Shown: positions 48,843 to 62,274 of the stretch, piece after piece
Numbering within the stretch: position 1 is the first letter of the stretch
Layout of the letters: each line of letters begins with the position of its first letter
Assembly: GCF_003858455.1 (NCBI RefSeq)
Contig: NZ_RQZF01000001.1
Location: 434,001-498,000, forward strand
Direction of reading: 5' to 3'
DNA from: Schaalia canis
Lineage (GTDB): Bacteria; Actinomycetota; Actinomycetes; Actinomycetales; Actinomycetaceae
DNA: 64,000 nt
Program-made: the position numbers and the translations under genes
The notes under the pieces: model-generated
What the model was told of the DNA's origin: nothing
Databases searched by the model: none
What the model saw: only the letters and a program-made list of their open reading frames with translations

Positions 48843-49139
48843 CTACCCCTCGCGGAACATAATCCCAAAGCTTCCTCGCGGATAGTGCCACTTGAGCACT
48901 CCCGCAGGAGCCATTGCCAGGCAGGTGCCACACTCCAGGCAAGCGGCATACTCGACGCCCACGCTGCCATCGGCTTCGACCGAATACACATGCGCTGGGC
49001 AGATGCGTTCAAGCAGAGGGCCCACCCCGAGTGTGCGAGCGAGTTCCTGGTTCACCTCAATGTGGGATTCTTCCTCATCGAGGTTGTAGGTATTCCCAGC
49101 CAGTCGGGCCGGAACGCTCTCAATGACGAGTTGTGCCAT
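48843..49139 (-). CDS. fixX: FixX-like ferredoxin
   Basis: 98 residues. Cys47 in ICPAHVY and Cys67/70/73 in CLECGTC match the FixX ferredoxin pattern. In E. coli and rhizobia it joins FixC to pass electrons from the FixAB flavoprotein towards quinone or low-potential acceptors. Last gene of the fix operon, 29 bp after fixC, followed by a strong terminator. Confidence 0.93.
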   Translation of the reverse strand: MAQLVIESVPARLAGNTYNLDEEESHIEVNQELARTLGVGPLLERICPAHVYSVEADGSVGVEYAACLECGTCLAMAPAGVLKWHYPRGSFGIMFREG

Positions 49140-49168
49140 TGCGTGTTCCTCCTTTCAGAAGGTGAGGG

Positions 49169-50473
49169 TTACAGGGCTCGGATGCCGGCAAAGACATCGC
49201 CCATGATCTGCGTCATCTTCACACCTGATGCTTTGAGGGCATCGAGTCCGACTGCCCGCAGGTGACGCCTGGGGGTCAAGTCGTGGTTGAAAACGCCGTA
49301 GAACACGTCGGCGGCGAGCTTGCCGTAGTCGCTGTACATGCGGGGGCGCTCCAGGAAGGCTGGTGCTTTGGCGTAGGTTGCCATGTCTTTGCCAACGAAG
49401 CTGGCATCCAGCAGGCTCCGGTAAACATCCATCGATTCCTGACTGAAATCCATCACCCCGAAGGCCTTCTGGATAGCACCGGCCGCTGCCAACGCTGACC
49501 CTGCAGCCAGGTCCATGCCGCGAATGGTCAACCCTGTGTTCAGGGTGAAGCCCGCGGCATCTCCGATGATGATGAGCCCCGGTCTGGTCAGGTCATGGGA
49601 GCTCATTGCTGAGCCGTCCTCAATGGTGAGGTGGCACCCGTATTCAAGAAGCTGCCCATCTTCGAGTAAGGGGGCGATAGCGGGGTGTTGCAGCAGGTGG
49701 TCGTGAATGTCTGAGGAGGACAGCCCCGAGGCTTCGAGGTCATCGAGCCTCATCACCACACCGATGGAGACGGATTCTTCATTGGTGTAGAGGAAACCAC
49801 CACCAGCCACCCCCTGCGTGCAGTCCCCCACCATGGCGTAGGCGACGCCCTCGTTGCCGCGAACATTGAAGCGGTCCTCAAGAACCTTACGAGGCAGGCC
49901 GATAACGGACTTCACCCCGACGGCGAGGTGCTTCATGGGCTCCTTAGCGCGAATACCGGCGTCTTGGGCAATGAAGGAGTTAACGCCGTCTGCTGCGACC
50001 ACCACATGGCAACGCAGTTCGTCTTCTCCAGCTCGAACGCCAACGATCTGGGTGCCCTCAGTGATGAGGGAATCAACCTTCACGCCAGGCATAACGGTCA
50101 CGCCTGCTTCCTCGCATTGTTCAAGGAGCCACGCGTCAAGTTTGACGCGTAGGACGGTCACGGCGTTTGCCGGTTCGGTCAGGCGCTGATCCCAGTAGTC
50201 GATGTTGACGAAGGAGCTCTGGTTGATCAGGCTCACGCAGTTGCGTGTGATGCGACGTTCAACGGGCGCAATATTGACGAAGTCGGGAAAGACTTTTTCC
50301 ATAATGCGGCAGTAGAACACGCCACCGGAGAGGTTCTTTGAGCCTGGTTCGGCGCCACGCTCAATGAGCAGGACCTCCCGGCCTTGCTGGGCGAGGGTGT
50401 AGGCGCAAACTGCGCCCGCCACTCCGCCGCCGATGACAATGACGTCGAAGTCGACGTCGACTTCTTCAGACAT
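49169..50473 (-). CDS. fixC: FixC-like electron-transfer flavoprotein:quinone oxidoreductase
   Basis: 434 residues. The FAD Rossmann motif GGGVAGA begins at residue 15 (FDVIVIGGGVAGAVCAYTLA), and the second FAD contact GLIIIGDAAGFTLNTGLTIRGMDLA is near 290. The SKNLSGG stretch at about 46 is typical of FixC. It is membrane-associated in related systems. Lies between fixB and fixX in the canonical order A-B-C-X. Confidence 0.95.
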   Translation of the reverse strand: MSEEVDVDFDVIVIGGGVAGAVCAYTLAQQGREVLLIERGAEPGSKNLSGGVFYCRIMEKVFPDFVNIAPVERRITRNCVSLINQSSFVNIDYWDQRLTEPANAVTVLRVKLDAWLLEQCEEAGVTVMPGVKVDSLITEGTQIVGVRAGEDELRCHVVVAADGVNSFIAQDAGIRAKEPMKHLAVGVKSVIGLPRKVLEDRFNVRGNEGVAYAMVGDCTQGVAGGGFLYTNEESVSIGVVMRLDDLEASGLSSSDIHDHLLQHPAIAPLLEDGQLLEYGCHLTIEDGSAMSSHDLTRPGLIIIGDAAGFTLNTGLTIRGMDLAAGSALAAAGAIQKAFGVMDFSQESMDVYRSLLDASFVGKDMATYAKAPAFLERPRMYSDYGKLAADVFYGVFNHDLTPRRHLRAVGLDALKASGVKMTQIMGDVFAGIRAL

Positions 50474-50500
50474 GGTGTTCTCGTTTCAGGACAGCGCTGA

Positions 50501-51373
50501 TCAGGACAGGGCTGCGGTCAGTGCGGGCACGACCTCGTAAATGTCTCCCACAATGCCGTAGTCAGCGATCTGGAAAATGGGGGCATTGGCGTCATTGTTG
50601 ACGGCCACGACGATCTTGGTGTCAGCCATGCCGGAGGTGTGCTGCACCTGGCCGGAAATACCCAGAGCGACGTAGATGTCAGGTGAAACGTGCATACCTG
50701 AGACGCCGATGTAACGGTCCTTGCTCATCCACGCGGTGCCTTCTGCAAGTGGGCGCGAGCAGGCCATCTCAGCGCCGAGGGCATCTGCCAGGCCCTGAGC
50801 GATAGCGAGATCGTCCTCAGTTTTGAAGCCACGTCCGCAGGCGACAATCCTGCGTGCTGCGGCAAGGTTGGCCGGTCCTGAGCTTGCGGGTTGGACGGAG
50901 ACAACGCTGGCACCCATGGGGGTGGCCTCGTGCGTTTCCGCTGCTGGGCCGTCGGCGTCTGCGGGAGCGCCGCCTTCGAGGACGAGTACAGCTCCGTTGA
51001 AGCTGACGGTCTCGTTGGTCAGGCCACCGTAGCGGGCGACCTCGGCACCGGTGGCACTCACGTTGGTGGCACCAACAATGACAGGAAGGGCGAGGGCGGC
51101 TGCCGCAGCTCCAGCAAAGGAGCGCTCAGCAGGACGGTTAGCGGCAAGAATAACGTCGCCAGCAGCCTCAGCGAGTAGCCCTGCAACGACGCCAGCGTAT
51201 GCTTCGGCGGGCACATTATCGGCAGTCGGGACGTGAATGACACGATCAACGCCTGCGATACTGGGCGCGGTGGGGGCAACGGCGATGACAGTGGCGGTGC
51301 CGCCAATGGCTTTGGCGGTGTCAACGAGGTTGGTGACGTGCTCGTTGGTGGTAAGAATCCAGGTGTTCGTCAT
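50501..51373 (-). CDS. fixB: FixB-like electron-transfer flavoprotein alpha subunit
   Basis: 290 residues. The C-terminal FAD domain is clear: CSRPLAEGTAWM, YIGVSGMHVSPDIYVALGISGQVQHTSGM and IFQIADYGIVGDIYEVVP. These are the standard ETF-alpha contacts to FAD. Forms a heterodimer with FixA. Whether it bifurcates electrons cannot be judged by eye. Confidence 0.95.
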   Translation of the reverse strand: MTNTWILTTNEHVTNLVDTAKAIGGTATVIAVAPTAPSIAGVDRVIHVPTADNVPAEAYAGVVAGLLAEAAGDVILAANRPAERSFAGAAAAALALPVIVGATNVSATGAEVARYGGLTNETVSFNGAVLVLEGGAPADADGPAAETHEATPMGASVVSVQPASSGPANLAAARRIVACGRGFKTEDDLAIAQGLADALGAEMACSRPLAEGTAWMSKDRYIGVSGMHVSPDIYVALGISGQVQHTSGMADTKIVVAVNNDANAPIFQIADYGIVGDIYEVVPALTAALS

Positions 51374-51390
51374 TGTTCTGCTGTCCTTTC

Positions 51391-52152
51391 TCAGAGCGCG
51401 CCGGCGTTGCGCAGAGCTGCGACGAGCTGTGCGGCAGCGTCGTCTCCGGTGAACATTTCATTGCGGCGAGCCTTCGCAACGGGCTTGGCTCGGCCGGTGA
51501 CCTCAAGGGTGACGTCTGTGAGCGTCAGGTCGCCTGCGGAGACCTCGTCAAGGGGTTTCTTTCCGGCGGCGAGGATGTCCTTCATGCCGGGAACCTTGAC
51601 GGGCGCAGCGTCAGTGGCGACCGCTGCGACGACGGGGCCGTCCACGGTGATGGTGCGGGTGCCACCAGCGGTGGATTGAGTGAGGGCCCATCCCTGTCCT
51701 GCGGCTTCAATGGCGGTGACTTCCTGGAAGCACGGCCAGCCGAGGAACCCTGCGATGAGGGTGGGGACGATCTTGGCTGATTCGTCGATGGAGGAGTCGC
51801 CTGCAAGGACCAGGGTGGCTCCGTCAATCTTTCCAACAAGGCCCGCGAGCCCGCTGGCGACGGTGGTGGCGTTCCAGGTGGAGGTGGTGTCGTCTGCGAC
51901 GACGAGTGCGCGGTCCATGCCTCGTGAGAGGGCGCCTTTCTTTGCCATGGACGAGGCTACTGCGCTGCTTCCGACTGAGATGCCGACGACGTCGGTTCCG
52001 AGGGAGTCTGCGAGGGTGCGTCCGACCTGCACGGCGACGGGATCGTATTCGGAGATTGCGGCCTTGGCGCGCGACCAGTCGACCACGCCGGAGGCATCAA
52101 CGGTGGTGTCTTGTGGGTTAGCGGCGTACTTGTACGCGACAACGATGCTCAT
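51391..52152 (-). CDS. fixA: FixA-like electron-transfer flavoprotein beta subunit
   Basis: 253 residues from the ATG at 52152 (MSIVVAYKYAANPQDTTV); the longer frame crosses the operator region. ETF-beta features include DWSRAKAAISEYDPVAVQVG and LVLAGDSSIDESAKIVPTLIAGFLGWPCFQEVTAIE. First gene of fixABCX, divergent from the TetR gene, so a promoter and operator in the 91-bp gap probably control it. The ribosome binding site is weak. Confidence 0.93.
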   Translation of the reverse strand: MSIVVAYKYAANPQDTTVDASGVVDWSRAKAAISEYDPVAVQVGRTLADSLGTDVVGISVGSSAVASSMAKKGALSRGMDRALVVADDTTSTWNATTVASGLAGLVGKIDGATLVLAGDSSIDESAKIVPTLIAGFLGWPCFQEVTAIEAAGQGWALTQSTAGGTRTITVDGPVVAAVATDAAPVKVPGMKDILAAGKKPLDEVSAGDLTLTDVTLEVTGRAKPVAKARRNEMFTGDDAAAQLVAALRNAGAL

Positions 52153-52204
52153 CGTCTGCTCTTTCTGTTGAAGGTGCGGTTGGCGGTATATCGGGTGTGG
52201 AAAC

Positions 52205-52220
52205 CCTGAAAGCTTTGAGG
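52205..52220. promoter_or_regulatory. Candidate TetR operator between fixA and tetR
   Basis: CCTGAAAGCTTTGAGG is a 16-bp palindrome with one mismatched pair, centred on AAGCTT. It lies in the divergent gap, 53 bp before fixA and 24 bp before tetR, where a local TetR-type repressor would be expected to bind. Confidence 0.5.
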
Positions 52221-52243
52221 AAGGGTCGTTAAGATAGAGATAT

Positions 52244-52906
52244 GTGACCTCCCTCATGAAAGGTGCGTGTGCGGTGACACAGTCGGCGGTTCTTCACCCT
52301 CCAAAACCGGGACGTCCTCGTGACGCCCAGTTGGAGGAACGTGTGTTTCGCGCTGCCTTGGACCTCTATGGCGAGGCCGGCTGGGCGGGTTTTAATCTGA
52401 CGAAGCTTGCAGCCGAAGCGGGCGTAGGTAAGTCGAGCTTGTATTCGCGGTGGATTGACCGCGATGATTTGCTCCACTGTGCGTTCACCGCGTTGGTGAC
52501 CTGCCCGGGACCGGTTGGGGATTCCCCGCGTGAGATCCTTGTGAACGAGGCCGACTTTCGCTTGAGGGAATACCTGGGGCCCAACCGTTCCGCTGTGCGA
52601 CGTCTTTTTGTTGAAGCAGGCAACGAGGTTGATCCTGTGATCTGCGAGATCTACAGGGATGTGTTCGTCACTCCCCTGTCGGCTATTCACGCTAGGTTGT
52701 GGGATTTCAAGCTCAATGGAGAGTTGCCGCGTAATACCTCGGTGGTGCGTCTGCTGGATGCGATTGAAGGAAGCGTGCTGATGCGCACCTTCTGTTTGCC
52801 TGAAGATGTCATTGAGTGCTTCTTGGAGAAGGTTCCGGCCTACGTTGCCGATCTGGTTGACGATCAACTTCATCACCATGAGCCTTCGCGCCAGTTGGAG
52901 ATCTGA
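52244..52906 (+). CDS. TetR-family regulator of the cai/fix locus (inferred)
   Basis: 220 residues from GTG at 52244; GTG at 52274 is an alternative start with AAAGG upstream. The N-terminal HTH is typical: RVFRAALDLYGEAGWAGFNLTKLAAEAGVGKSSLYSRW. The ligand-binding part is unclassified, and FFC-type acyl-CoA ligand preference cannot be told. Divergent from fixA and convergent, with 34-bp overlap, with the hydrolase gene. It would replace CaiF, the activator used by E. coli. Confidence 0.85.
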   Translation: MTSLMKGACAVTQSAVLHPPKPGRPRDAQLEERVFRAALDLYGEAGWAGFNLTKLAAEAGVGKSSLYSRWIDRDDLLHCAFTALVTCPGPVGDSPREILVNEADFRLREYLGPNRSAVRRLFVEAGNEVDPVICEIYRDVFVTPLSAIHARLWDFKLNGELPRNTSVVRLLDAIEGSVLMRTFCLPEDVIECFLEKVPAYVADLVDDQLHHHEPSRQLEI

Positions 52907-53541
52907 GTGCCACCTCGTTGTGCGGGTCCAGCCATGATCCGCAGCAAGGGCTGTTCGATTCCTAAGTTGGTGGGGCGCCCGTGTCCGGGGTAGACGGTAA
53001 GATCTTTGTCCATCTGTGCCAGGCGTGCGCAGGATTTCATCATGTCAACGGGGTTGCCCATAACGAAGGCAGTGGAACCAATGGCACCGGCAAAGAGCAT
53101 GTCACCTGTGAAAAGGACACGTTGAGCCTCGTTAAGTAGGCAGATGCTGCCGGGGGTGTGACCGGGCGTGTGAAGGACGGTGAGGTGGTCGCCTCCCCAG
53201 GTGATGGTGTCGCCCTCGTGAAGGGGCCGGTCGATGTGGTCAACGGTGTAGTCAATGCCCTCTTCGTCAAAGCCAGACCTGTGTACGTCAGCGACGCCAT
53301 CAACATCGTCGTGGCCGCACCCTACCCAGCATCCGTAGGCGTCGACGAGTTCGTTGACGGCTCCAATGTGGTCACAGTGGCAGTGGGTGAGGATGATCCC
53401 CTCGATGTTTTTGTCTCCCAGCCAACGCAGGAGCACCTCAGGTTGTGCACCAGGATCAATGACGATAGTTCCTGCACTGTTTGTCAGCGCGTAGCACACT
53501 GCTTTCCAGGAGCCGACGGTGATCTGTTCGATGGTGAACAT
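52873..53541 (-). CDS. Metallo-beta-lactamase-fold hydrolase (glyoxalase II-like)
   Basis: 222 residues. THCHCDHIG near 52-60 gives the metal ligands His53, His55, Asp57 and His58; GHTPGSICLL and VYPGHGRPT supply the others. Such proteins hydrolyse thioesters such as S-lactoylglutathione, among other bonds. As the last gene of the cai-like block it could act on a CoA or other thioester; that is inference. AGGGGG precedes the ATG, 2 bp after the MFS stop. Confidence 0.85.
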   Translation of the reverse strand: MFTIEQITVGSWKAVCYALTNSAGTIVIDPGAQPEVLLRWLGDKNIEGIILTHCHCDHIGAVNELVDAYGCWVGCGHDDVDGVADVHRSGFDEEGIDYTVDHIDRPLHEGDTITWGGDHLTVLHTPGHTPGSICLLNEAQRVLFTGDMLFAGAIGSTAFVMGNPVDMMKSCARLAQMDKDLTVYPGHGRPTNLGIEQPLLRIMAGPAQRGGTQISNWREGSW

Positions 53542-53543
53542 TC

Positions 53544-54878
53544 TTAGCGCCCCCTAAAGTCGGGTGATCCGGTTTCAGCAAGGGTGTAGCCGCGCGTCTC
53601 GGGGGCCCAGATGATGGAGACGATAAGACCTAGGGCAGAGATTGCTGCGCCTGCGAGCATTGTCATGCCGATGCCGTGATCGATGATGAATGCGGGCAGG
53701 ATGTAGATGGACACGACGGTGCCGATGCGGCTGAAGGCCATGGCGAAGCCCATGGCGGTTGCCCGGATTTCTGTGGGGAAGAGTTCGTTGGGGTAGAGCC
53801 ATTCGAGGTTGCCGGGCCCACCAGAAAGGATCGCGTAGGCAATGAAGCATCCCATGATCAGGCCGATGCCAGCGCCGGGGAAGAACCCGATAATAGCCAG
53901 GGCAATGGTCATTCCACCGAAGCAGCCAATGATGAGTGGCCTGCGGCCGATCTTTTCGCACAGGTACATGGCGGGGAAGGTGCCCAGCATGAAGAATGTG
54001 CCAATCAACAGTTCCCCAAGGAGGACATTGCGGCCCTCTCCCAGTCCAACGGCGCTGATGATCTGAGGCCCGTAGGTGTAGAGGGCAAACATGGGGATGG
54101 CTTGGCAGAGCCAGATGACGCCCACGAAAATCACGCGCTGCAGGTACACGCCTTGGAGGACTTTACGGACCGAGGTTTTCGCAGCGTCCTCTGCCTCGGG
54201 CAGGCGGACATTGGCTCCCAGAGTCTCGTGCACGATACGTTGAGCTTCTTCTGCGCGCCCCTTGGAGACGAGCCAGCGTGGAGATTCTGGGATATTCCAT
54301 CGGCCTACGAGGATGGCGATGCAGGGAACGGCGGAGGAGGCGAGCATGTAGCGCCAGCCGTGGGATGTGTTGATGAGGACGAAACCCACCAGGGCGGCGA
54401 CGTTAGCGCCCAGGTACCAGGCTGCGGCAATAATGCCCATCGCTGCAGCGCGGTATTTACGAGGCGAGAACTCGGTGATCATGGAGGTGGCGATCGGATA
54501 GTCGGCGCCGACAGCCACACCAATGAGGAAACGCAGGACCACTAGCATCAGGGGGCCGTTGACTAGGGCACACAGGATCGATAGGACGGCGATGACGACA
54601 AGGTCGATGACGAACATTTTGCGTCGCCCGATCAGGTCAGTCACCCATCCGCCAACAGAAGCCCCCAGGAAGAGTCCCACGAGGGCGGCAACGCCAAGCA
54701 GACCATTCCAGTGGGCATCGAGGACGAGATCCGTGCCCATTGCCCCCAAAGCTACGCCAATGATTGAAAGCACATAGCCTTCAAGGAAGGGGCCACCCGA
54801 GGAAAAGACAATGACACGTTTGAGGAGGGGCGTCATTTCTAAGTCTTCGAGGTCAATGATGGGCTCATCGTTGCTCAT
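53544..54878 (-). CDS. MFS transporter, sugar-porter/YaaU-like
   Basis: 444 residues with about 12 membrane segments. DLIGRRKMF is the loop 2-3 motif, and PESPRWLVSKGRAEEAQ before the central loop is the sugar-porter style signature. In E. coli the MFS protein YaaU is encoded directly beside fixX next to the cai operon, and YgcS beside another ETF pair, so this association recurs. It could import the substrate or export the product. Confidence 0.88.
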   Translation of the reverse strand: MSNDEPIIDLEDLEMTPLLKRVIVFSSGGPFLEGYVLSIIGVALGAMGTDLVLDAHWNGLLGVAALVGLFLGASVGGWVTDLIGRRKMFVIDLVVIAVLSILCALVNGPLMLVVLRFLIGVAVGADYPIATSMITEFSPRKYRAAAMGIIAAAWYLGANVAALVGFVLINTSHGWRYMLASSAVPCIAILVGRWNIPESPRWLVSKGRAEEAQRIVHETLGANVRLPEAEDAAKTSVRKVLQGVYLQRVIFVGVIWLCQAIPMFALYTYGPQIISAVGLGEGRNVLLGELLIGTFFMLGTFPAMYLCEKIGRRPLIIGCFGGMTIALAIIGFFPGAGIGLIMGCFIAYAILSGGPGNLEWLYPNELFPTEIRATAMGFAMAFSRIGTVVSIYILPAFIIDHGIGMTMLAGAAISALGLIVSIIWAPETRGYTLAETGSPDFRGR

Positions 54879-54933
54879 GGTGTTCTCCCTTCTATCTGCT
54901 GAGGGGCTGGTCAGTATCGTGTGGGCGTGTGTA

Positions 54934-54971
54934 GCGTGGGAGAGGCGATGGTGGCGTTGCCTCTCCCACGC
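54934..54971. promoter_or_regulatory. Hairpin 1 in the maoC-MFS gap
   Basis: Perfect 13-bp arms GCGTGGGAGAGGC and GCCTCTCCCACGC around a 12-nt loop. No T-run. It divides the cai-like operon between the MaoC gene and the MFS gene and may set their relative expression. Confidence 0.65.
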
Positions 54972-54978
54972 CGCATGC

Positions 54979-55017
54979 GGGAATCAGGGACTGCAGAGTT
55001 TCAGGCGCATGATTCCC
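54979..55017. promoter_or_regulatory. Hairpin 2 in the maoC-MFS gap
   Basis: GGGAATCA and TGATTCCC pair over a 23-nt loop, directly 3' of the MaoC stop on the minus strand. Together with hairpin 1 it fills most of the 150-bp gap. Confidence 0.5.
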
Positions 55018-55028
55018 CTACGCTCGCG

Positions 55029-55904
55029 TCAGCGGTATTCGATGATGCCCCAGTTCAGATGGGGCTTGGCACCGGTTTCCTCCGCGTCAACATCAACGAG
55101 TGCGAAACGCAGTTCGCCCTCGCCCACCTTCCACAGTTGTGTCTTGAGGGTGGATCCTGGGTGAACGGGTGAGGTGATGCGCGTCTTGAAACGCGTGATG
55201 CGCTCGGGCTCGCCCGGAACAAAGGCGTTGATCGCATGGCGCATGACAACACCGGCGTAAGAGATGGCGTGCAGGATGGGGCGCGGTTCGCCGTTTTCTG
55301 CGGCGTAGTCCCAGTCAATGTGCTGGGGATGGTAGTCACCCGAGAGACGGTAGATAAGCGCCTGATTCTCAGGAATGGTCTCGACCACTTCAACGTCTGC
55401 GGGGCGGTCGGGCATGTCGACAATGTCCTTGGGGGGCGTGGGTCCGCCCCAGCCACCGTCGTAGATCAGGCAGTCCCAGGATTCATTGGTGAACAGGAGG
55501 TTGCCGTCAGAATCGTAGGTGTCACCAATGTGTTGGGCGAGGAGGCCCCGTCCTTCACCACGGTCATAGAGGCCTTCCAGGCGCACCATCGTTTCCAGGT
55601 GGTCGCTCATCTTCGTCATGGGGCGATGGAAGGTGATGTCAAAACCCCAGTGCAGGGAGCCGGCGTAGTTGTAGCCGTAGTCGATAGTGCGCGTAACCTC
55701 TGAATCGACGATGAGCATGGCGCCAAACATGGGGAGCACCTTGAGTTTGGGGTCGCGTTCGTCATGCTCGTTGAGGTATTCAAGGCCGTCTTTACCATCA
55801 ATGCCCGCACCGCAGCCGAGGGCGAAAAGCTCCAGGTCGCGGAAGGTGTAGTCACGGACGAAGGGGCCGAAAGTCTGGCCCACCATGTCGGTATTGATCG
55901 CCAT
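55029..55904 (-). CDS. MaoC-like (R)-specific hydratase/dehydratase, double hot-dog
   Basis: 291 residues. The C-terminal hot-dog carries YRLSGDYHPQHID with Asp190 and His195 at the catalytic positions of hydratase 2, then RPILHAISYAGV. The family motif is G-D-x-N-P-x-H; here Asn is replaced by His192. The N-terminal half resembles the second, non-catalytic hot-dog. Its position between caiC-like and transporter genes suggests it hydrates or dehydrates the CoA intermediate, the step done in E. coli by the unrelated crotonase CaiD. Confidence 0.85.
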   Translation of the reverse strand: MAINTDMVGQTFGPFVRDYTFRDLELFALGCGAGIDGKDGLEYLNEHDERDPKLKVLPMFGAMLIVDSEVTRTIDYGYNYAGSLHWGFDITFHRPMTKMSDHLETMVRLEGLYDRGEGRGLLAQHIGDTYDSDGNLLFTNESWDCLIYDGGWGGPTPPKDIVDMPDRPADVEVVETIPENQALIYRLSGDYHPQHIDWDYAAENGEPRPILHAISYAGVVMRHAINAFVPGEPERITRFKTRITSPVHPGSTLKTQLWKVGEGELRFALVDVDAEETGAKPHLNWGIIEYR

Positions 55905-55947
55905 TGGTCAGTGTCCTTTCATGGAAATGGTGTTATTGGAAGTGGTG

Positions 55948-57528
55948 TTACTGGGTGGCAAGAAGATGTTTTTGTACTTTCCCGTAGGTGCCGCGCGGGA
56001 GTTCTTCAACGAACTCCACGAAGCTCGGCACCTTGAAGGCAGCAAGGTGGCGGGCACAGTGGTCGATAATCGCGCAGACATTGAGCTCTACATCCGGGTC
56101 GGGCACGATGAATGCTTTGACAGCTTGACCGCGCACGCTGTCTGGCACGCCAATAACGGCCACCTCACGCACGCCGGGGAAGTCGTCAATAACGCCTTCG
56201 ACCTCAGCCGAGGACACCGATTCGCCCGAACGTTTAATGAGGTCAACGCGCCGATCTACGAAGTAGACCCACCCGTCCTCGACGTAGGCGTAGTCACGGG
56301 TGTAGTACCAGCCGTCCTTATCGAGAACCTCCTCGGTAGCTTCCGGGTTATCCCAGTAGCCCGCCATCAGGCTCACTCCTGGGATACCGTGAAGGGCTAA
56401 TTCCCCCACTTCACCGTCAGGGAGAGCGCGTCCGTCCTCGTCAATGACGCAGACCTGGTATCCGGGCCCTGCCTGGCCGATGGAAGGCCAGCGCCGCTCC
56501 CCGTGGGGTGGGTCTGTTACAGCGCCAATGAGGCACTCGGTTGAGCCATAGTTGTTCAGCAGCGGCACGCCGAAGCGTTCCTCAAAGGCTTCCTTATCCT
56601 GCGTGCTTAGTGGCAGGAAGTAGTGCATTTCGCGCACCTGGTGGTCGCGCTCATGCGGGTCGACGGGTTGGCGCAGCATCGTTGCCACGATCATTGCCAT
56701 CCCCTGAACGAGGGTGGCACGGTGGACACGCGCCTGACGCCAGAAAAAGGTCGCCCGATAGTGGGAGAGCATGATGAGTGTCGCCCCCAGAGTCAGCACC
56801 GGCGCGAGGGCAGAAAGTTGGTAGTTGACTCGGGTGGCCACCATGGAGGTCATGTAGCGATCCTCGGGGGTCATTCCCAGTTCCCAGTTGACGAAATTGC
56901 CGGAGAAGACAACATTCGCGTGCGTAATCATCACGCCTTTGGGTTCGGAAGTGGTGCCCGAGGTGAAAAGGATTTCGCACAGGTCAAAGGGGTCGATACT
57001 CGCTGGAGGAGTGAAGGTGTCTGCCTCATGCCAGGTGAGTTCACGCAGGTGGGGTAGGCCAGCGGCAGCGTCCTCGTCCTCGGCGTCTCCCTGCCCGACC
57101 ACAATAATGTCCTTGACGGTGGTGGGCAGGTGGGAGCGCACTTGGCTGAGGTTACTCATGCAGGCCACGACCGTGCGTGCCTGGCACAGGCGCAAGATGC
57201 GACCCAACTCGAAGGGCGCCGAAGAAGCGTCAACGGGGACGGCCACAGCCCCGATTTTCGCCAAAGCCAGCAGGCATTCGACAAACTCGACACAATTGTC
57301 AAGGTAGAGTGCCACCTGGTCTTTCTCACCAATGCCACGAGCAACGAGGGCGTTGGCGCACTGGTTAACCAGCGCGTCAAACTGACGGTAGGTGAAACGA
57401 CGGGTGTCATGCGTATGCGCATCCTCGAACACGAGGAACTCGTGCTCTCCCCTGTCCTCAACCTGCCGCTGCCACAGTTGGGGCAGTGTGGTGGTCTCCG
57501 GCGCGAACTCCGAGTGGGTCACGATCAA
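55948..57528 (-). CDS. caiC: CaiC-like acyl-CoA ligase
   Basis: 526 residues. ILFTSGTTSEPKGVMITH near 187-204 is the AMP-forming P-loop, NNYGSTECLIG the adenine-binding motif and the C-terminal TYGKVQKHLL holds the adenylation Lys. Long blocks agree with E. coli CaiC, for example VALYLDNCVEF, LAKIGA and YFVDRRVDLIKRSGE. CaiC activates carnitine, crotonobetaine or butyrobetaine with CoA. The start is TTG at 57528 directly after caiB, or GTG at 57522; AAGGA lies upstream of both. Confidence 0.88.
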   Translation of the reverse strand: MIVTHSEFAPETTTLPQLWQRQVEDRGEHEFLVFEDAHTHDTRRFTYRQFDALVNQCANALVARGIGEKDQVALYLDNCVEFVECLLALAKIGAVAVPVDASSAPFELGRILRLCQARTVVACMSNLSQVRSHLPTTVKDIIVVGQGDAEDEDAAAGLPHLRELTWHEADTFTPPASIDPFDLCEILFTSGTTSEPKGVMITHANVVFSGNFVNWELGMTPEDRYMTSMVATRVNYQLSALAPVLTLGATLIMLSHYRATFFWRQARVHRATLVQGMAMIVATMLRQPVDPHERDHQVREMHYFLPLSTQDKEAFEERFGVPLLNNYGSTECLIGAVTDPPHGERRWPSIGQAGPGYQVCVIDEDGRALPDGEVGELALHGIPGVSLMAGYWDNPEATEEVLDKDGWYYTRDYAYVEDGWVYFVDRRVDLIKRSGESVSSAEVEGVIDDFPGVREVAVIGVPDSVRGQAVKAFIVPDPDVELNVCAIIDHCARHLAAFKVPSFVEFVEELPRGTYGKVQKHLLATQ

Positions 57529-58749
57529 TCAGTCCTTATCGGCAGTCTTGACGGTGCCGAGTTCGATCAGGCGGGCGATTTCCTCGTCGGAATATCCCGC
57601 GCGTCGTAGGACATCGCGCGTGTCCTCGCCCAGGGCTGGCATAGGACGCCAGAACGAACCTGGATTGCGTGAGAACTTCGGGAAAGTATTGAGGCCCATG
57701 ACGGTTGCGCCCTCGGCGTTTTCCCATTCGATGAAGCATTCACGCTGTTTAACGTGGTCGGCAGCCAGAATGTCGGGGAATTCGTTCACCACCTGAGCGG
57801 CAATGCGGTGGTCAACGAAGTCGCGCTGCACATCGTATTTGGACTGAGTCTTGAGATAGGCCTCCAGAGTCTCCTGGATGAGATCAGCCTTGGGGCCATT
57901 AAGCCACAGTGCCGAGGTGTCCTCGGGGTATTCCTCGGTGCCCCACAGGTGACCAAGGCCGATGGTTTCCAGCAGATACTTATTCTGCGACACCCCATAC
58001 AGGCACAGGCCAATGTAGCCGTCCTTGCATTCATAGATGCCGATGCCGCAGAGGTTCTGATGGCGAGCGCCAGGACGCGGGTAGGTGATCCCCGCGTTCA
58101 TGAAGTCCATCATGTAGTAGGTGCCGACACGCAGGAGGGTTTCATACATGGCCATGTCGATGCTCTCACCCTCGCCGGTGACGCCCACGCGATGCAGGGC
58201 AGCCAGGGAGGAGGAGATAATCATGAGGGAATTGATGTAATCACCCAGATAAGGGGAGATATTCATCGGCTGGTCGACGGTGCCGTTCTGGGCGACGATA
58301 CCCGCGTAGGCGGCAACCGTCAGATCGTAGGCGGCTGAGTTGACCTGAACGTCATCACCCCACTGGCCAAAGCCCGAGACGTGGACGATAACGAGTTTGG
58401 GGTTGATCTCCCACAAGAACTCGTCAGTGATGCCCTTACGAGCGTACATGGGGCCTTTAGAGGATTCGATGAAGATATCCGCGTCCTTGACGATGGCGCG
58501 CAGGGCTTCCTTGCCTTCATCGGTAAAAGGATTCATCGAGATGGAACGCATATTGCGCCGTTCCATTTCCTTGACCCAGGCGGTGTCGCGCATGGAGTCA
58601 CCCGTCCACACGTTTTCGATCCAGGTGACGTCCGCACCCCATTCGGCCATGATGGCCGCAGCAGTGGGGGCGGCGATTTCAACAGCAGAATAGACAACCT
58701 TGACGCCGTCAAGGACGCCAAATGATGGCTTTTCGGTAGGCAGTGCCAT
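57529..58749 (-). CDS. caiB: CaiB-like class III CoA-transferase
   Basis: 406 residues against 405 in E. coli CaiB, with very similar blocks throughout: AEWGADVTWIENV, DIFIESSKGP, GITDEFLWEINPKLVIVHVSGFGQ and GEGESIDMAMYE. The active-site Asp corresponds to Asp170 in SPYLGDYIN. CaiB exchanges CoA between butyrobetaine, crotonobetaine and carnitine. The strong overall match supports a trimethylammonium-type or closely related substrate, although substrate has not been tested. Confidence 0.92.
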   Translation of the reverse strand: MALPTEKPSFGVLDGVKVVYSAVEIAAPTAAAIMAEWGADVTWIENVWTGDSMRDTAWVKEMERRNMRSISMNPFTDEGKEALRAIVKDADIFIESSKGPMYARKGITDEFLWEINPKLVIVHVSGFGQWGDDVQVNSAAYDLTVAAYAGIVAQNGTVDQPMNISPYLGDYINSLMIISSSLAALHRVGVTGEGESIDMAMYETLLRVGTYYMMDFMNAGITYPRPGARHQNLCGIGIYECKDGYIGLCLYGVSQNKYLLETIGLGHLWGTEEYPEDTSALWLNGPKADLIQETLEAYLKTQSKYDVQRDFVDHRIAAQVVNEFPDILAADHVKQRECFIEWENAEGATVMGLNTFPKFSRNPGSFWRPMPALGEDTRDVLRRAGYSDEEIARLIELGTVKTADKD

Positions 58750-58776
58750 GGTGAAACAGTCCTTTCGTGGTGTCGG

Positions 58777-59910
58777 TCAGCGGTAGTCGTACAGGGCGGA
58801 GCGTCCTGCAGCGAGGATCATCATTTCGTCGGTGCCACCTGAGACGCGGTCGACGCGAAGATCACGGTAGAAGCGCTGGACGCGATGCTCGCCGGTGATG
58901 CCTACGCCTGCGAGAACCTGGAGGGCGTGGTCAACGACCTCGAAGGATGCCTGCGAGCAGTAGTACTTCGCCATTGAGCAATCGCCGCGTGAGAGCAGGC
59001 CCTGGCTGTGCTTCCACGCAATCTCGTAGAGCATGTTGCGCATGTTCGTCAGGCGAATCTTCATCTCAGCGAATTTCAGTTGAATGAGCTGGTGGCGGGC
59101 GATGGCCTGACCGCCCTGGACGCGCTGGTTGGCGTACTTGGCGGCGTCCTCGAAGGCGCAGTAGGCCTGGCCGTAGTTGGTGAGTGCCACAAGGAAACGC
59201 TCAAGATCAAAGTCCGCCACGCCGCGGCGGAAGCCGTTGCCTTCAGTGCCGAAGAGGTCTTTTTCTTCGAGTTCGACATTGTCGAAGTAGACGTCACAGC
59301 ACGAGTCCATGCGCAACCCCAGCTTGTCAAGGGGTTCCTTGGTGATGCCCGGCAGGCTCATGTCAACAAACCATTCGGTGTAGGTGTCCATGTTGTCGCT
59401 GTCGCGGGCCATGACCACCAGGTAGGGGACGTGGAGGGATGAGGTGATGAAGGTCTTGTGTCCGTTGAGGTAGACCTTGCCGTCCTTACGCGTGTAGGTG
59501 GTGCGCATGTCGTCCCAGGATGAGCCTGCCGAGGGCTCAGTCATGGCGTAGTTGATCATCTGCTTGCCGGTTCCGACGAAGGAGAGGATCTTTTCTTGTT
59601 GTTCCTCAGTGCCTTCGCGCAGGACGGTGTCCCAGCAAGGCATCTGGTAGAGGACGTAGGTGGGGCCACCTTCACGGCCAAGTGCTTCGTAAGCTGCGGT
59701 GAGGGTCACCCAGTCGGCACCAAGCCCGTCGTGTTCTTCGGGCAGGAGGATGCGATCAAAGCCGAGTTCGCAGATCGCTTCGGTCCATTCGATGGGGTAT
59801 TCGTGTTTGACGTCGCACTCGTGGAAGTATTTGTCCCAGTTGCGTGAGCGCATGAGTTCGGTGAAGGCATCGACCATGAGTTGTTGGTCTTCAGACAGTG
59901 AAAAATCCAT
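58777..59910 (-). CDS. caiA: CaiA-like acyl-CoA dehydrogenase (enoyl-CoA reductase)
   Basis: 377 residues, close to E. coli CaiA (380). Matching blocks include [82 protein letters not shown] and the [15 protein letters not shown] end. CaiA reduces crotonobetainyl-CoA to butyrobetainyl-CoA with electrons from FixABCX. At the place where MCAD has its catalytic Glu (YEGT), this protein reads SGGT, as E. coli CaiA does. Confidence 0.92.
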
Positions 59911-59958
59911 GTCCAGTCACTTTCTGTGTAGGAGCGCCGTCGCTCGCCAGTCAAAGGG

Positions 59959-60927
59959 TTACGGGTGAAGAGGGTGGTCGGTGTAGAAGTTGGCGGCCTC
60001 GCTGAGAACCTCCATGGTCTGGTCAAGCATCTTTGAGTGGTGCAAGAAGCCATGGATGACGCCATCAACCTCGTGGAAGAGATGAGGAACGCTGCAGAGG
60101 GTGAGGATTTCTGCCAGTGTGCGTGAATCGTCCCGAAGGGGGTCAAGGCCTGCGGCGACGACGTAGCTTGGCGGGATGCCGTGGCTGAAGTCGTTGCGGA
60201 GGATATTGAAGTAGGGATCGTCAACGTCGGCCAGATCGGGAAGATACTGGCCAAGATAGTAGGCGTAGTCCTCCTCGGTCAGACCATCCCAACTTCCGCC
60301 CAGCAGGCGCATTGACATGGAGTCTTTCAGGCCGTAGGCGCCGTAGAAAAGCAGCATGGTCCGAACGCTGCTCAGAGTGCCTTCGTCACGCATCATGAGC
60401 ATGGTTGCTACGGCCATATTTGCTCCGGCGGAGTCTCCTGCAAAGGAGATATCCTCGGGGTCAATACTCCATTTTTCTGCGTTGTCGCGAATGTGCGTCA
60501 CGACGTCGACACATTCGTGAATCTGCCGAGGGAACTGAGCGTCGGGAGCCAGGGTGTAGTCGATACTCACAACCGCTGCTCCTGTGAGGTGGCAGAGGGT
60601 GCGGGCAATGCGGTCGTGAGTATCAACGTCCCCGATGACCCAGCCGCCGCCATGCATGTAGACGATGAGGGGCAGGGTGTCCTCGGCAGTTGGGCGGTAG
60701 TAGCGTACGCGCACCTGCCCGTAGCGAGTAGGAGCGTTGTAGTCGGTGACAACGGCAACGCTGGGGCCGCCCTCGTTCCAGAAGGCGCGCTCTGTCCGAT
60801 AGGCCTGGCGCATGTCTTCCAGGCTTTGGCCGGTGACGTAGGCGTCTTTTGCGAGCTCATTTTGTGTGTCGACCACGCGGCCCATTTGTTCGGTCCACAG
60901 GCGAGGAACGTCGTACTTGTGCCCCAT
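59959..60927 (-). CDS. HSL-family alpha/beta hydrolase (esterase)
   Basis: 322 residues, no signal peptide, so cytoplasmic. HGGGW at 92-96 is the oxyanion-hole motif, GDSAGAN gives nucleophile Ser166, and GLDPLRDD and IHGFLHH supply Asp262 and His292. The triad is complete. Family members hydrolyse short acyl esters. E. coli cai lacks such a gene; here it could free the pathway substrate from an ester such as an acylcarnitine-like compound, which is inference. It lies 10 bp after the MFS gene. Confidence 0.88.
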   Translation of the reverse strand: MGHKYDVPRLWTEQMGRVVDTQNELAKDAYVTGQSLEDMRQAYRTERAFWNEGGPSVAVVTDYNAPTRYGQVRVRYYRPTAEDTLPLIVYMHGGGWVIGDVDTHDRIARTLCHLTGAAVVSIDYTLAPDAQFPRQIHECVDVVTHIRDNAEKWSIDPEDISFAGDSAGANMAVATMLMMRDEGTLSSVRTMLLFYGAYGLKDSMSMRLLGGSWDGLTEEDYAYYLGQYLPDLADVDDPYFNILRNDFSHGIPPSYVVAAGLDPLRDDSRTLAEILTLCSVPHLFHEVDGVIHGFLHHSKMLDQTMEVLSEAANFYTDHPLHP

Positions 60928-60936
60928 GAGTGTTCC

Positions 60937-62274
60937 TTAGGCGTTGGGTTCGGCGTCGATTTCGGCGTTGCGCTTGCGGGCAACAACGACGAGGGCGAAG
61001 GCGCAGACTGCAGCAATGGCGGCGGCTGCTGCCAGGATGAGGAAGATCTGGTTGTATGCCACTGCGGGGTTGTCTTGGTGGGCGTCACGGATGGAGCCGA
61101 ACCAGATGTAGGAGAAAGTGTCGGGCAGGAATCCAATAACTGAGAGCAGGCCTGTGGCGGTGCCAAAGACACTGACAGGAACCTTACCTTCTGTGAGCTG
61201 GCTGGAGCAGATGCCAAAGACACCGTTGGCGATGAAGGCCAGGAGGATAGCCATGGCAACTGCGACGTAGGCCAGGGAGGCTTGCGCGGGCAGGAAGGCG
61301 AAGATAATCAGGCCGATCATGACAACGACGGAGCCTGCGCCGATGACCTTCGAGGGTGAGCCGAGTTTTCCGGCGATTGCACCGAAGAAGGGGGCCGAGA
61401 TCAGGGAGACGCCATAGGTACGGACGGTACCGACCACAAGAACGATGCCGGGGGCAATGTTCATGACGTTATTCATGTAGCCGGTGGTCTGGTTGACGCC
61501 GGTGTAGAAGAAGTAGACGAAGAAGAGGGTGAGTGCGGCCAGCCAGACAACGGGGTTGGAGAGGACTTGGCCGAGCTGTGTGAAGTTGAATCCGCCTTCG
61601 GATGAGCCGATTTCACCTTCGAACTTCGGGATGAAAAGGAAGGAGAGGATGGCGAGGGCCATGATGACGCTGCCCAGGACGATGAGCAGGGTGCGCATGG
61701 GGATAATGTCTCCCTGGTCGGTCAGGTTCGAGACGATGGCGGCGTTGACGAAGCCGAGGATGAGACCTGCCAGGCCGTAGAAGCCGTAGGAGAGGCCAAT
61801 GTTCCGCGAATAGCCTTCTTCTTCGGAGATGAGGCGCACAAGCTTAAAGCGGATGCCCCACCAGATGAGGATGGTGGTGATACCCATGGCGACGAAGAGG
61901 CCGATGAGGGTGGTGTAGGAGGGGAAGAATGCGTACCAGTAGGTGAGCAGTGCGGTGCTGCCAAAGCCTACCCAGGCCAGGGTGCGGACGCGGACGCGGT
62001 CAGCGACGATGCCGGAGGGCAGGTAGCACACCAGTGCCGTCCATGAGTAGGCGGCCAGGAGCGTACCAAGGGTGGTGGCGACGTTTTCTTGGCTGGCTGC
62101 TCCTGATGCGATGAGTGCTTTGCCGAGGGGTTCGTCAAAGACGTATTGGAGGTAGGCGGGCGTATAGATGATGGAGCTGCCGATGGAGACCAGAATGAGC
62201 AAGAAGATGCGGTGGAAGCGTGAGAGGTCATCCGCATGGCGTTCCTGAGTAAGCAGACTCAGCACTGTGGCCAC
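60937..62274 (-). CDS. MFS transporter, first gene of the cai-like operon
   Basis: 445 residues with about 12 membrane segments. The central WWGIRFKLVRLISEEEGYSRNIGLSYGFYGLAGLILGF stretch is seen as short pieces in YihN/OPA-like carriers; this assignment is tentative. The GTG at 62274 overlaps AAAGG, so the GTG at 62265, spaced 5 nt from AGGTGG, may be the true start. A BCCT carrier like CaiT is absent from the window. Confidence 0.82.
   Translation of the reverse strand: MATVLSLLTQERHADDLSRFHRIFLLILVSIGSSIIYTPAYLQYVFDEPLGKALIASGAASQENVATTLGTLLAAYSWTALVCYLPSGIVADRVRVRTLAWVGFGSTALLTYWYAFFPSYTTLIGLFVAMGITTILIWWGIRFKLVRLISEEEGYSRNIGLSYGFYGLAGLILGFVNAAIVSNLTDQGDIIPMRTLLIVLGSVIMALAILSFLFIPKFEGEIGSSEGGFNFTQLGQVLSNPVVWLAALTLFFVYFFYTGVNQTTGYMNNVMNIAPGIVLVVGTVRTYGVSLISAPFFGAIAGKLGSPSKVIGAGSVVVMIGLIIFAFLPAQASLAYVAVAMAILLAFIANGVFGICSSQLTEGKVPVSVFGTATGLLSVIGFLPDTFSYIWFGSIRDAHQDNPAVAYNQIFLILAAAAAIAAVCAFALVVVARKRNAEIDAEPNA

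Follow-up and report, generated by a model that had tools for sequence, protein, structure and literature searches.

In a 64,000-nucleotide (64-kb) stretch of Schaalia canis contig NZ_RQZF01000001.1 (hereafter the window), we find a gene cluster that we read, with a probability of roughly 0.6, as a Gram-positive form of the cai/fix system. It would reduce carnitine anaerobically to gamma-butyrobetaine, and an enzyme of the hydratase-2 (hot-dog) type, MaoC, would serve as its carnitinyl-coenzyme A (CoA) dehydratase. The important change is that of maoC for caiD. With its recurrence in dozens of Gram-positive species, the layout looks to be a second, widespread form of a known pathway. An earlier note, made from this DNA alone, had described CaiA-, CaiB-, and CaiC-like proteins together with fixABCX as a reductive locus with electron transfer flavoprotein (ETF)-type genes but without CaiT and CaiD, and that description was borne out. 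The host genome comprises 2.58 Mb in 76 contigs and is 99.88% complete; judged on CaiB, its closest named relative is Schaalia sp. Marseille-Q2122 (98% identity).

Assignment of the locus to the cai/fix type

To assign the Cai and Fix proteins, the curated (equivalog) cut-offs of NCBIfam were used. CaiA and CaiB score above those of the crotonobetainyl-CoA dehydrogenase and L-carnitine CoA-transferase models, respectively; the top model for CaiC is carnitine-CoA ligase, with a score under its cut-off; and FixA, FixB, FixC, and FixX are all present as homologs whose model matches lie below the equivalog cut-offs (Table 1). Identities to the Escherichia coli K-12 proteins are 62% for CaiA, 45% for CaiB, 38% for CaiC, 30% for FixA, 38% for FixB, 41% for FixC, and 43% for FixX. 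The top PDB matches of CaiB are structures of crotonobetainyl-CoA:carnitine CoA-transferase (1xa3/1xk6).

The earlier note had allowed that trees might place these proteins in general acyl-CoA metabolism, away from CaiABC; instead, all three grouped with their E. coli counterparts. In a tree of 46 acyl-CoA dehydrogenases, built by a quick method and carrying a warning of long outside branches, the 31 CaiA rows (E. coli, the window, and 29 loci) are set apart from all others by a branch with a Shimodaira-Hasegawa-like approximate likelihood ratio test support of 100, and E. coli CaiA lies nearest the CaiA sequences of Bacillota. When four long rows were left out and E. coli YdiO was added, the CaiA split had a support of 99, with YdiO outside. 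The same split, with the E. coli protein on the same side as 21 loci and the window, was obtained for CaiC against 5 outside rows (support, 98) and for CaiB against 6 outside rows (support, 90, with a long-branch warning). Moreover, a CaiA search across 398 genomes of Bacilli, in which each genome had few candidates scored, gave one protein at 756 bits and the next at 252; relatives of CaiA that are not CaiA scored 413 to 453 bits in genomes outside that set. Altogether, the sequence comparisons indicate that the locus is a true cai/fix-type system.

MaoC as the proposed replacement of CaiD

In line with the earlier note, which had missed these genes in the window, CaiT, CaiD, CaiE, and CaiF of E. 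coli have no tblastn match at 1e-3 across the 64 kb. It had also raised the possibility that caiT and caiD lie elsewhere in the genome, and neither was found in the host genome. The only crotonase-family gene found there is MenB (532.9 bits; cut-off, 378). The two betaine/choline/carnitine transporter (BCCT) family carriers of the host score 229 and 225 against the CaiT cut-off of 541, which rules them out as CaiT; they are closest to the betaine and choline carrier models, under those cut-offs as well. Two MaoC domains were found in the host genome, one in the locus MaoC and the other in a 3,084-residue open frame that is presumably a fatty acid synthase. Thus, if carnitine is used, MaoC would be the sole stand-alone hydratase of both families at hand.

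MaoC is inherited together with the cai genes. The earlier note had suggested a search for the gene set in the family; among 213 family genomes, MaoC (E≤1e-40) and CaiB (over cut-off) occur in the identical 39, host included, always on one contig with starts 2.4 to 3.2 kb apart. A Fisher test of this co-occurrence takes no account of relatedness among the genomes, and its value cannot be read as a probability. Over these 39 genomes, MaoC is 72 to 100% identical, and CaiC is more variable. In 396 phylum-wide genomes, the MaoC match is two-peaked, with 7 genomes at 366 bits or more and the next at 129; those 7 are the 8 genomes with CaiA minus one (G810).

The active site is conserved yet altered. 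MaoC matches the peroxisomal multifunctional enzyme type 2 (MFE-2) hydratase 2 (1s9c) in sequence with an E value of 6.7e-31. Hydratase 2 relies on an Asp and a His for catalysis, and the corresponding Asp190 and His195 are kept in 75 of 75 MaoC proteins, 52 of them cai linked and 23 others from the phylum-wide set. Between them, however, the hydratase-2 motif D-x-N-P-L-H reads D-x-H-P-Q-H in the cai-linked proteins (with Q for P in 6 of 52): His192 and Gln194 are found in 52/52, whereas Asn and Leu stand there in 23/23 of the others. The cai-linked proteins also hold further specific aromatic and acidic residues, including Y76, W143, D75, and D144, and our guess is that they form the walls of a pocket in which the trimethylammonium group sits; the predicted model of MaoC has a mean pLDDT (predicted local distance difference test) of 71.9, with two stretches below 50. 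From its position, its co-inheritance, and its conserved-yet-altered hydratase-2 site, we propose that MaoC is the carnitinyl-CoA dehydratase in place of CaiD.

We further compared the layout across genomes. A search of the genome collection with CaiB, which reaches close relatives only and samples them unevenly, gave 35 named loci. Whole genomes added 22 further regions: CaiB-positive family genomes gave 15, of which 5 duplicate named loci, and CaiA-positive genomes from a single other family in the phylum gave 7. The total is 52 distinct loci, exclusive of the window's genome. By bit thresholds, and with counts lowered because some loci are cut by contig ends, caiA, caiB, and caiC are present in all 52, maoC in 51, an mfsB-type major facilitator superfamily (MFS) carrier in 50, the esterase in 48, a YaaU-type MFS carrier in 47, fixC in 41, tetR in 32, mbl in 31, caiT in 2, and caiE and caiF in none. 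A CaiD passing the curated model was found in 0 of the 52. Three loci (L100, L103, and L104) hold a crotonase with CaiD as its top E. coli reference match; these were rejected as CaiD since, despite 40% identity, they score 172 to 179 bits against a cut-off of 500, and the EchA19 model scores higher (245 to 255), also under its cut-off of 400. The layout is kept in Actinomycetaceae, Cellulomonadaceae, another family of the phylum, and Bacillota, so the local rewiring that the earlier note had suggested does not hold; a gene order that recurs in so many species is not due to chance.

The strongest single case comes from Bacillota. Genome G1152, from the order of Neobacillus paridis, carries caiT-caiA-caiB-fixABCX-caiC-maoC-yaaU, with CaiT (776 bits), CaiA (740), CaiB (719), and CaiC (869) each over the curated cut-off and no caiD match within the 19.9-kb stretch; maoC thus stands within an otherwise textbook cai operon. 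The same order is found in Neobacillus paridis and in a Peptococcaceae genome (CaiT, 734 and 768 bits), and a Robertmurraya contig shows it without a caiT match and with a weak mfsB-like match upstream. At L065, L067, and L154, caiT precedes caiA, the place where the Actinomycetota loci put mfsB or mfsB plus the esterase.

The proposed pathway and its rivals

The earlier note had listed two MFS carriers, MaoC, a hormone-sensitive lipase (HSL)-family esterase, a metallo-beta-lactamase-fold hydrolase, and a TetR regulator as replacements for the missing cai genes. All are present, yet one of the carriers is no replacement. The carrier at 53544-54878 is 51% identical over 440 amino acids to E. 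coli YaaU, and its DNA matches at a single site per genome in 5,073 of 5,426 E. coli genomes, with yaaU named among the matches listed. Since it is a YaaU ortholog and E. coli yaaU adjoins fixX, it is an old partner and not a substitute, which rules out the two MFS carriers together as CaiT replacements. Judged in this way, the real swaps are maoC for caiD and, in Actinomycetota, the other MFS gene, mfsB, for caiT. MfsB has no PDB sequence match at 1e-3. In the literature covered, mostly non-subscription articles seen as excerpts and including two papers on YaaU, no link between YaaU and carnitine was found.

In the proposed pathway, carnitine or crotonobetaine would act as an anaerobic electron acceptor. 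The betaine would be imported by MfsB, and the Aes-like esterase, whose top PDB matches are acetyl esterase structures, is proposed to be an acylcarnitine esterase that may release carnitine from acylcarnitines. By family function, CaiC would supply the CoA ester that primes the cycle, and CaiB would shuttle CoA between product and substrate. MaoC would then dehydrate carnitinyl-CoA to crotonobetainyl-CoA, replacing CaiD, and CaiA would reduce the latter to gamma-butyrobetainyl-CoA with electrons delivered via FixABCX. YaaU would be a second conserved carrier, perhaps for product export; the mbl hydrolase, possibly a thioesterase, may recycle CoA esters; and TetR probably controls the divergent fix operon.

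Several points weigh against this pathway, among them a stereochemical one. E. coli CaiD belongs to the crotonases, which yield (S)-3-hydroxyacyl-CoA, whereas the known hydratase-2 enzymes yield the (R) form. By our own derivation, the nitrogen alters the Cahn-Ingold-Prelog order, so that L-(R)-carnitine has the spatial form of an (S)-3-hydroxyacyl group; with conserved stereochemistry, a hydratase 2 would therefore give D-carnitine. This leaves two options: the altered active site has switched the face that is attacked, or MaoC has some other role. This mismatch makes the case interesting and keeps our confidence moderate. In addition, L103 (genome G810) has no maoC and carries a generic crotonase upstream of mfsB on the same strand, while L100 and L104 carry maoC and a crotonase together; thus, there is no strict requirement for MaoC, or it may do something else as well. 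On Curtobacterium sp. MCLR17_007 plasmid G07 (L153), the genes are mfsB-caiB-caiC-maoC-mbl, with caiB lying in two frames and an IclR-type regulator nearby. No caiA was found on the plasmid (E≤1e-110), and the 28.9-kb stretch that was read holds no match to the fix genes or the esterase. This module speaks for maoC as a partner of the genes for CoA activation, yet one that can be kept without a nearby reductase. CaiC of the window is below its cut-off. Few of the sampled Bacillota have a CaiA over its cut-off (1/398 genomes in the class and 2/179 in the order of N. paridis, and 1/189 in the phylum of the Peptococcaceae genome, counts that include the center genome), and caiD was looked for in the Bacilli genomes within the locus stretches only. 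Finally, the 52 loci are an uneven sample, 35 of them coming from the search with the window's CaiB, and the enterobacterial locus compared is that of E. coli K-12 only, beyond matches on E. coli/Proteus plasmid records.

The stereochemistry has a direct rival explanation, namely that MaoC keeps normal hydratase-2 stereochemistry and acts on D-carnitinyl-CoA, with direct reduction of crotonobetaine by the locus; where a crotonase is present, MaoC would be one half of a carnitine racemase. The fold family and the kept catalytic Asp and His agree with this, as do the two loci with both crotonase and maoC. We nonetheless consider it unlikely: the host yielded no crotonase besides MenB, leaving no racemase pair; none of the 52 cai-linked proteins retains the active-site Asn or Leu; and an excerpt of one paper states that D-carnitine does not exist in nature (PMC2131755), so conserved a gene for a non-natural compound being improbable. 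A more specific form of the carnitine reading would have a hydratase-2-fold enzyme take over L-carnitinyl-CoA dehydration in Gram-positive cai operons, with the face reversed by the Asn-to-His and Leu-to-Gln changes, and would make E. coli YaaU a carrier of the same pathway; this we hold tentatively, at somewhat less than even odds.

A shift in substrate would also account for part of the data. If the Cai-like enzymes had changed in specificity, the locus could act on another short acid or betaine, in keeping with a CaiC under its cut-off, an MFS carrier in place of CaiT, and an esterase and mbl that the E. coli cai-fix stretch lacks; hidden Markov model cut-offs are, besides, no proof of substrate. 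CaiA and CaiB nevertheless pass equivalog cut-offs, and in a Bacilli genome, the same MaoC family stands beside CaiT, CaiA, CaiB, and CaiC that all pass theirs. The gamma-butyrobetaine (gbu/bbu) route raised in the earlier note relies, according to an excerpt of PMC8364193, on the lyase BbuA, whereas CaiA here is of the E. coli type; because it passes the E. coli-type cut-off, the gbu/bbu reading is not favored. We regard a different substrate as quite improbable. Lower still are the chances that MaoC is an accessory, for example, hydrating a side product or excess crotonobetainyl-CoA, in an organism that uses crotonobetaine only. That L103 keeps caiA, caiB, and caiC without maoC fits such a role, but the retention of maoC in 51 of 52 loci, its tighter conservation than CaiC over the family genomes, and its persistence with caiB and caiC in the caiA-less plasmid module make it very hard to credit.

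Gene layout and relation to known systems

Table 1. Genes of the cai/fix-type locus, in window coordinates
Gene or product	Position	Strand	Evidence and remarks
mfsB	60937..62274	-	Pfam MFS_1, 77 bits; first gene of probable 8-gene operon
hsl, Aes-like HSL-family esterase	59959..60927	-	NCBIfam acetyl esterase, 389.4 (cut-off 389)
caiA, crotonobetainyl-CoA reductase	58777..59910	-	NCBIfam, 711.9 (cut-off 540); 62% to E. coli CaiA
caiB, betainyl-CoA:carnitine CoA-transferase	57529..58749	-	NCBIfam, 669.8 (cut-off 413)
caiC-like CoA ligase	55948..57528	-	Top NCBIfam model CaiC, 554 (cut-off 651); TTG start uncertain
maoC, hydratase-2-type protein	55029..55904	-	Pfam MaoC_dehydratas and MFE-2_hydrat-2_N
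yaaU ortholog, MFS carrier	53544..54878	-	51% over 440 aa to E. coli YaaU
mbl, GloB-like metallo-beta-lactamase-fold hydrolase	52873..53541	-	Pfam Lactamase_B; GloB model, 93.8 (cut-off 200.8)
TetR-family regulator	52244..52906	+	Pfam TetR_N; divergent from fixA
fixA/etfB-like ETF subunit	51391..52155	-	Top NCBIfam ETF/FixA models, 119 and 113 bits, under cut-off; start set at 52155
fixB/etfA-like ETF subunit	50501..51373	-	Pfam ETF_alpha; 38% to E. coli FixB
fixC, ETF-quinone oxidoreductase-like flavoprotein	49169..50473	-	NCBIfam FixC-type models, 400 and 366 bits (cut-offs 466 and 610)
fixX, ferredoxin-like	48843..49139	-	NCBIfam FixX, 73 (cut-off 166)

The locus is flanked by genes for RNase J and DapA (Table 1). 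In the order of transcription, the first run is mfsB, the Aes-like esterase gene, caiA, caiB, caiC, maoC, the yaaU ortholog, and mbl, all on the minus strand; its intergenic gaps of 0 to 150 bases suggest that these eight genes probably form a single operon. It is followed on its 3' side by the divergent tetR and then by a second run, fixA-fixB-fixC-fixX. tetR and the 3' end of mbl overlap tail to tail by 34 bases (52873-52906). When 12 genomes were compared, no TetR operator common to the fixA-tetR gap and the region upstream of mfsB was found.

Two side observations come from related genomes. In Actinomyces marseillensis (L052), hsl-caiA is duplicated in tandem (89 to 90% identity to the window caiA). 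Two Actinomycetaceae-family genomes (L159, G167:C11:46000-64000, and L158, G094:C3) carry a tandem pair of CaiB-like CoA-transferases at 329 to 353 bits (cut-off, 413). The L159 pair may belong to a further reductive pathway for acyl-CoA: its neighbors are an MFS carrier, a crotonase-like and a dienoyl-CoA-reductase-like protein, and a fusion of an AMP ligase with a metallo-hydrolase-like part.

In the excerpts available, one source assigns the body's first step from L-carnitine toward trimethylamine to the cai operon that Enterobacteriaceae carry (PMC10653785) and another to "multiple taxa" (PMC10989800), and caiA abundance has been compared between heart disease patients and controls (PMC8364193). 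A maoC-type version could escape searches keyed on caiD, caiT, or close E. coli likeness, and several of the Actinomycetaceae carriers are named for mouth or animal sources. Within the literature covered, mostly non-subscription and in part excerpts, we found no description of a maoC-type cai locus or of an actinobacterial cai/crotonobetaine system.

Among described systems, the bbu/gbu cluster of Emergencia timonensis resembles the window, as far as the excerpted text of PMC8364193 goes, in a CoA ester of gamma-butyrobetaine and in CoA-transferases; it differs in that BbuA eliminates trimethylamine, whereas the acyl-CoA dehydrogenase of the window is CaiA by the curated model. The Bacillota-type loci (L065, L067, and L154) keep CaiT at 734 to 776 bits and, unlike the window, show no match to mfsB, tetR, mbl, or the esterase gene within their stretches; like it, they hold caiA, caiB, fixABCX, caiC, maoC, and yaaU, with no caiD in the stretch. 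Compared with E. coli caiTABCDE-fixABCX, the window has maoC, mfsB, the esterase, mbl, and TetR, lacks CaiD, CaiE, CaiF, and CaiT, and places the fix genes differently. Two folds that are unrelated, and whose expected stereochemistry is opposite, apparently carry out one and the same reaction. The two systems share relatives of CaiA, CaiB, and CaiC, fixABCX, and a YaaU ortholog, and the locus thereby gives a lead on the function of YaaU, which is annotated only as a putative transporter in E. coli.

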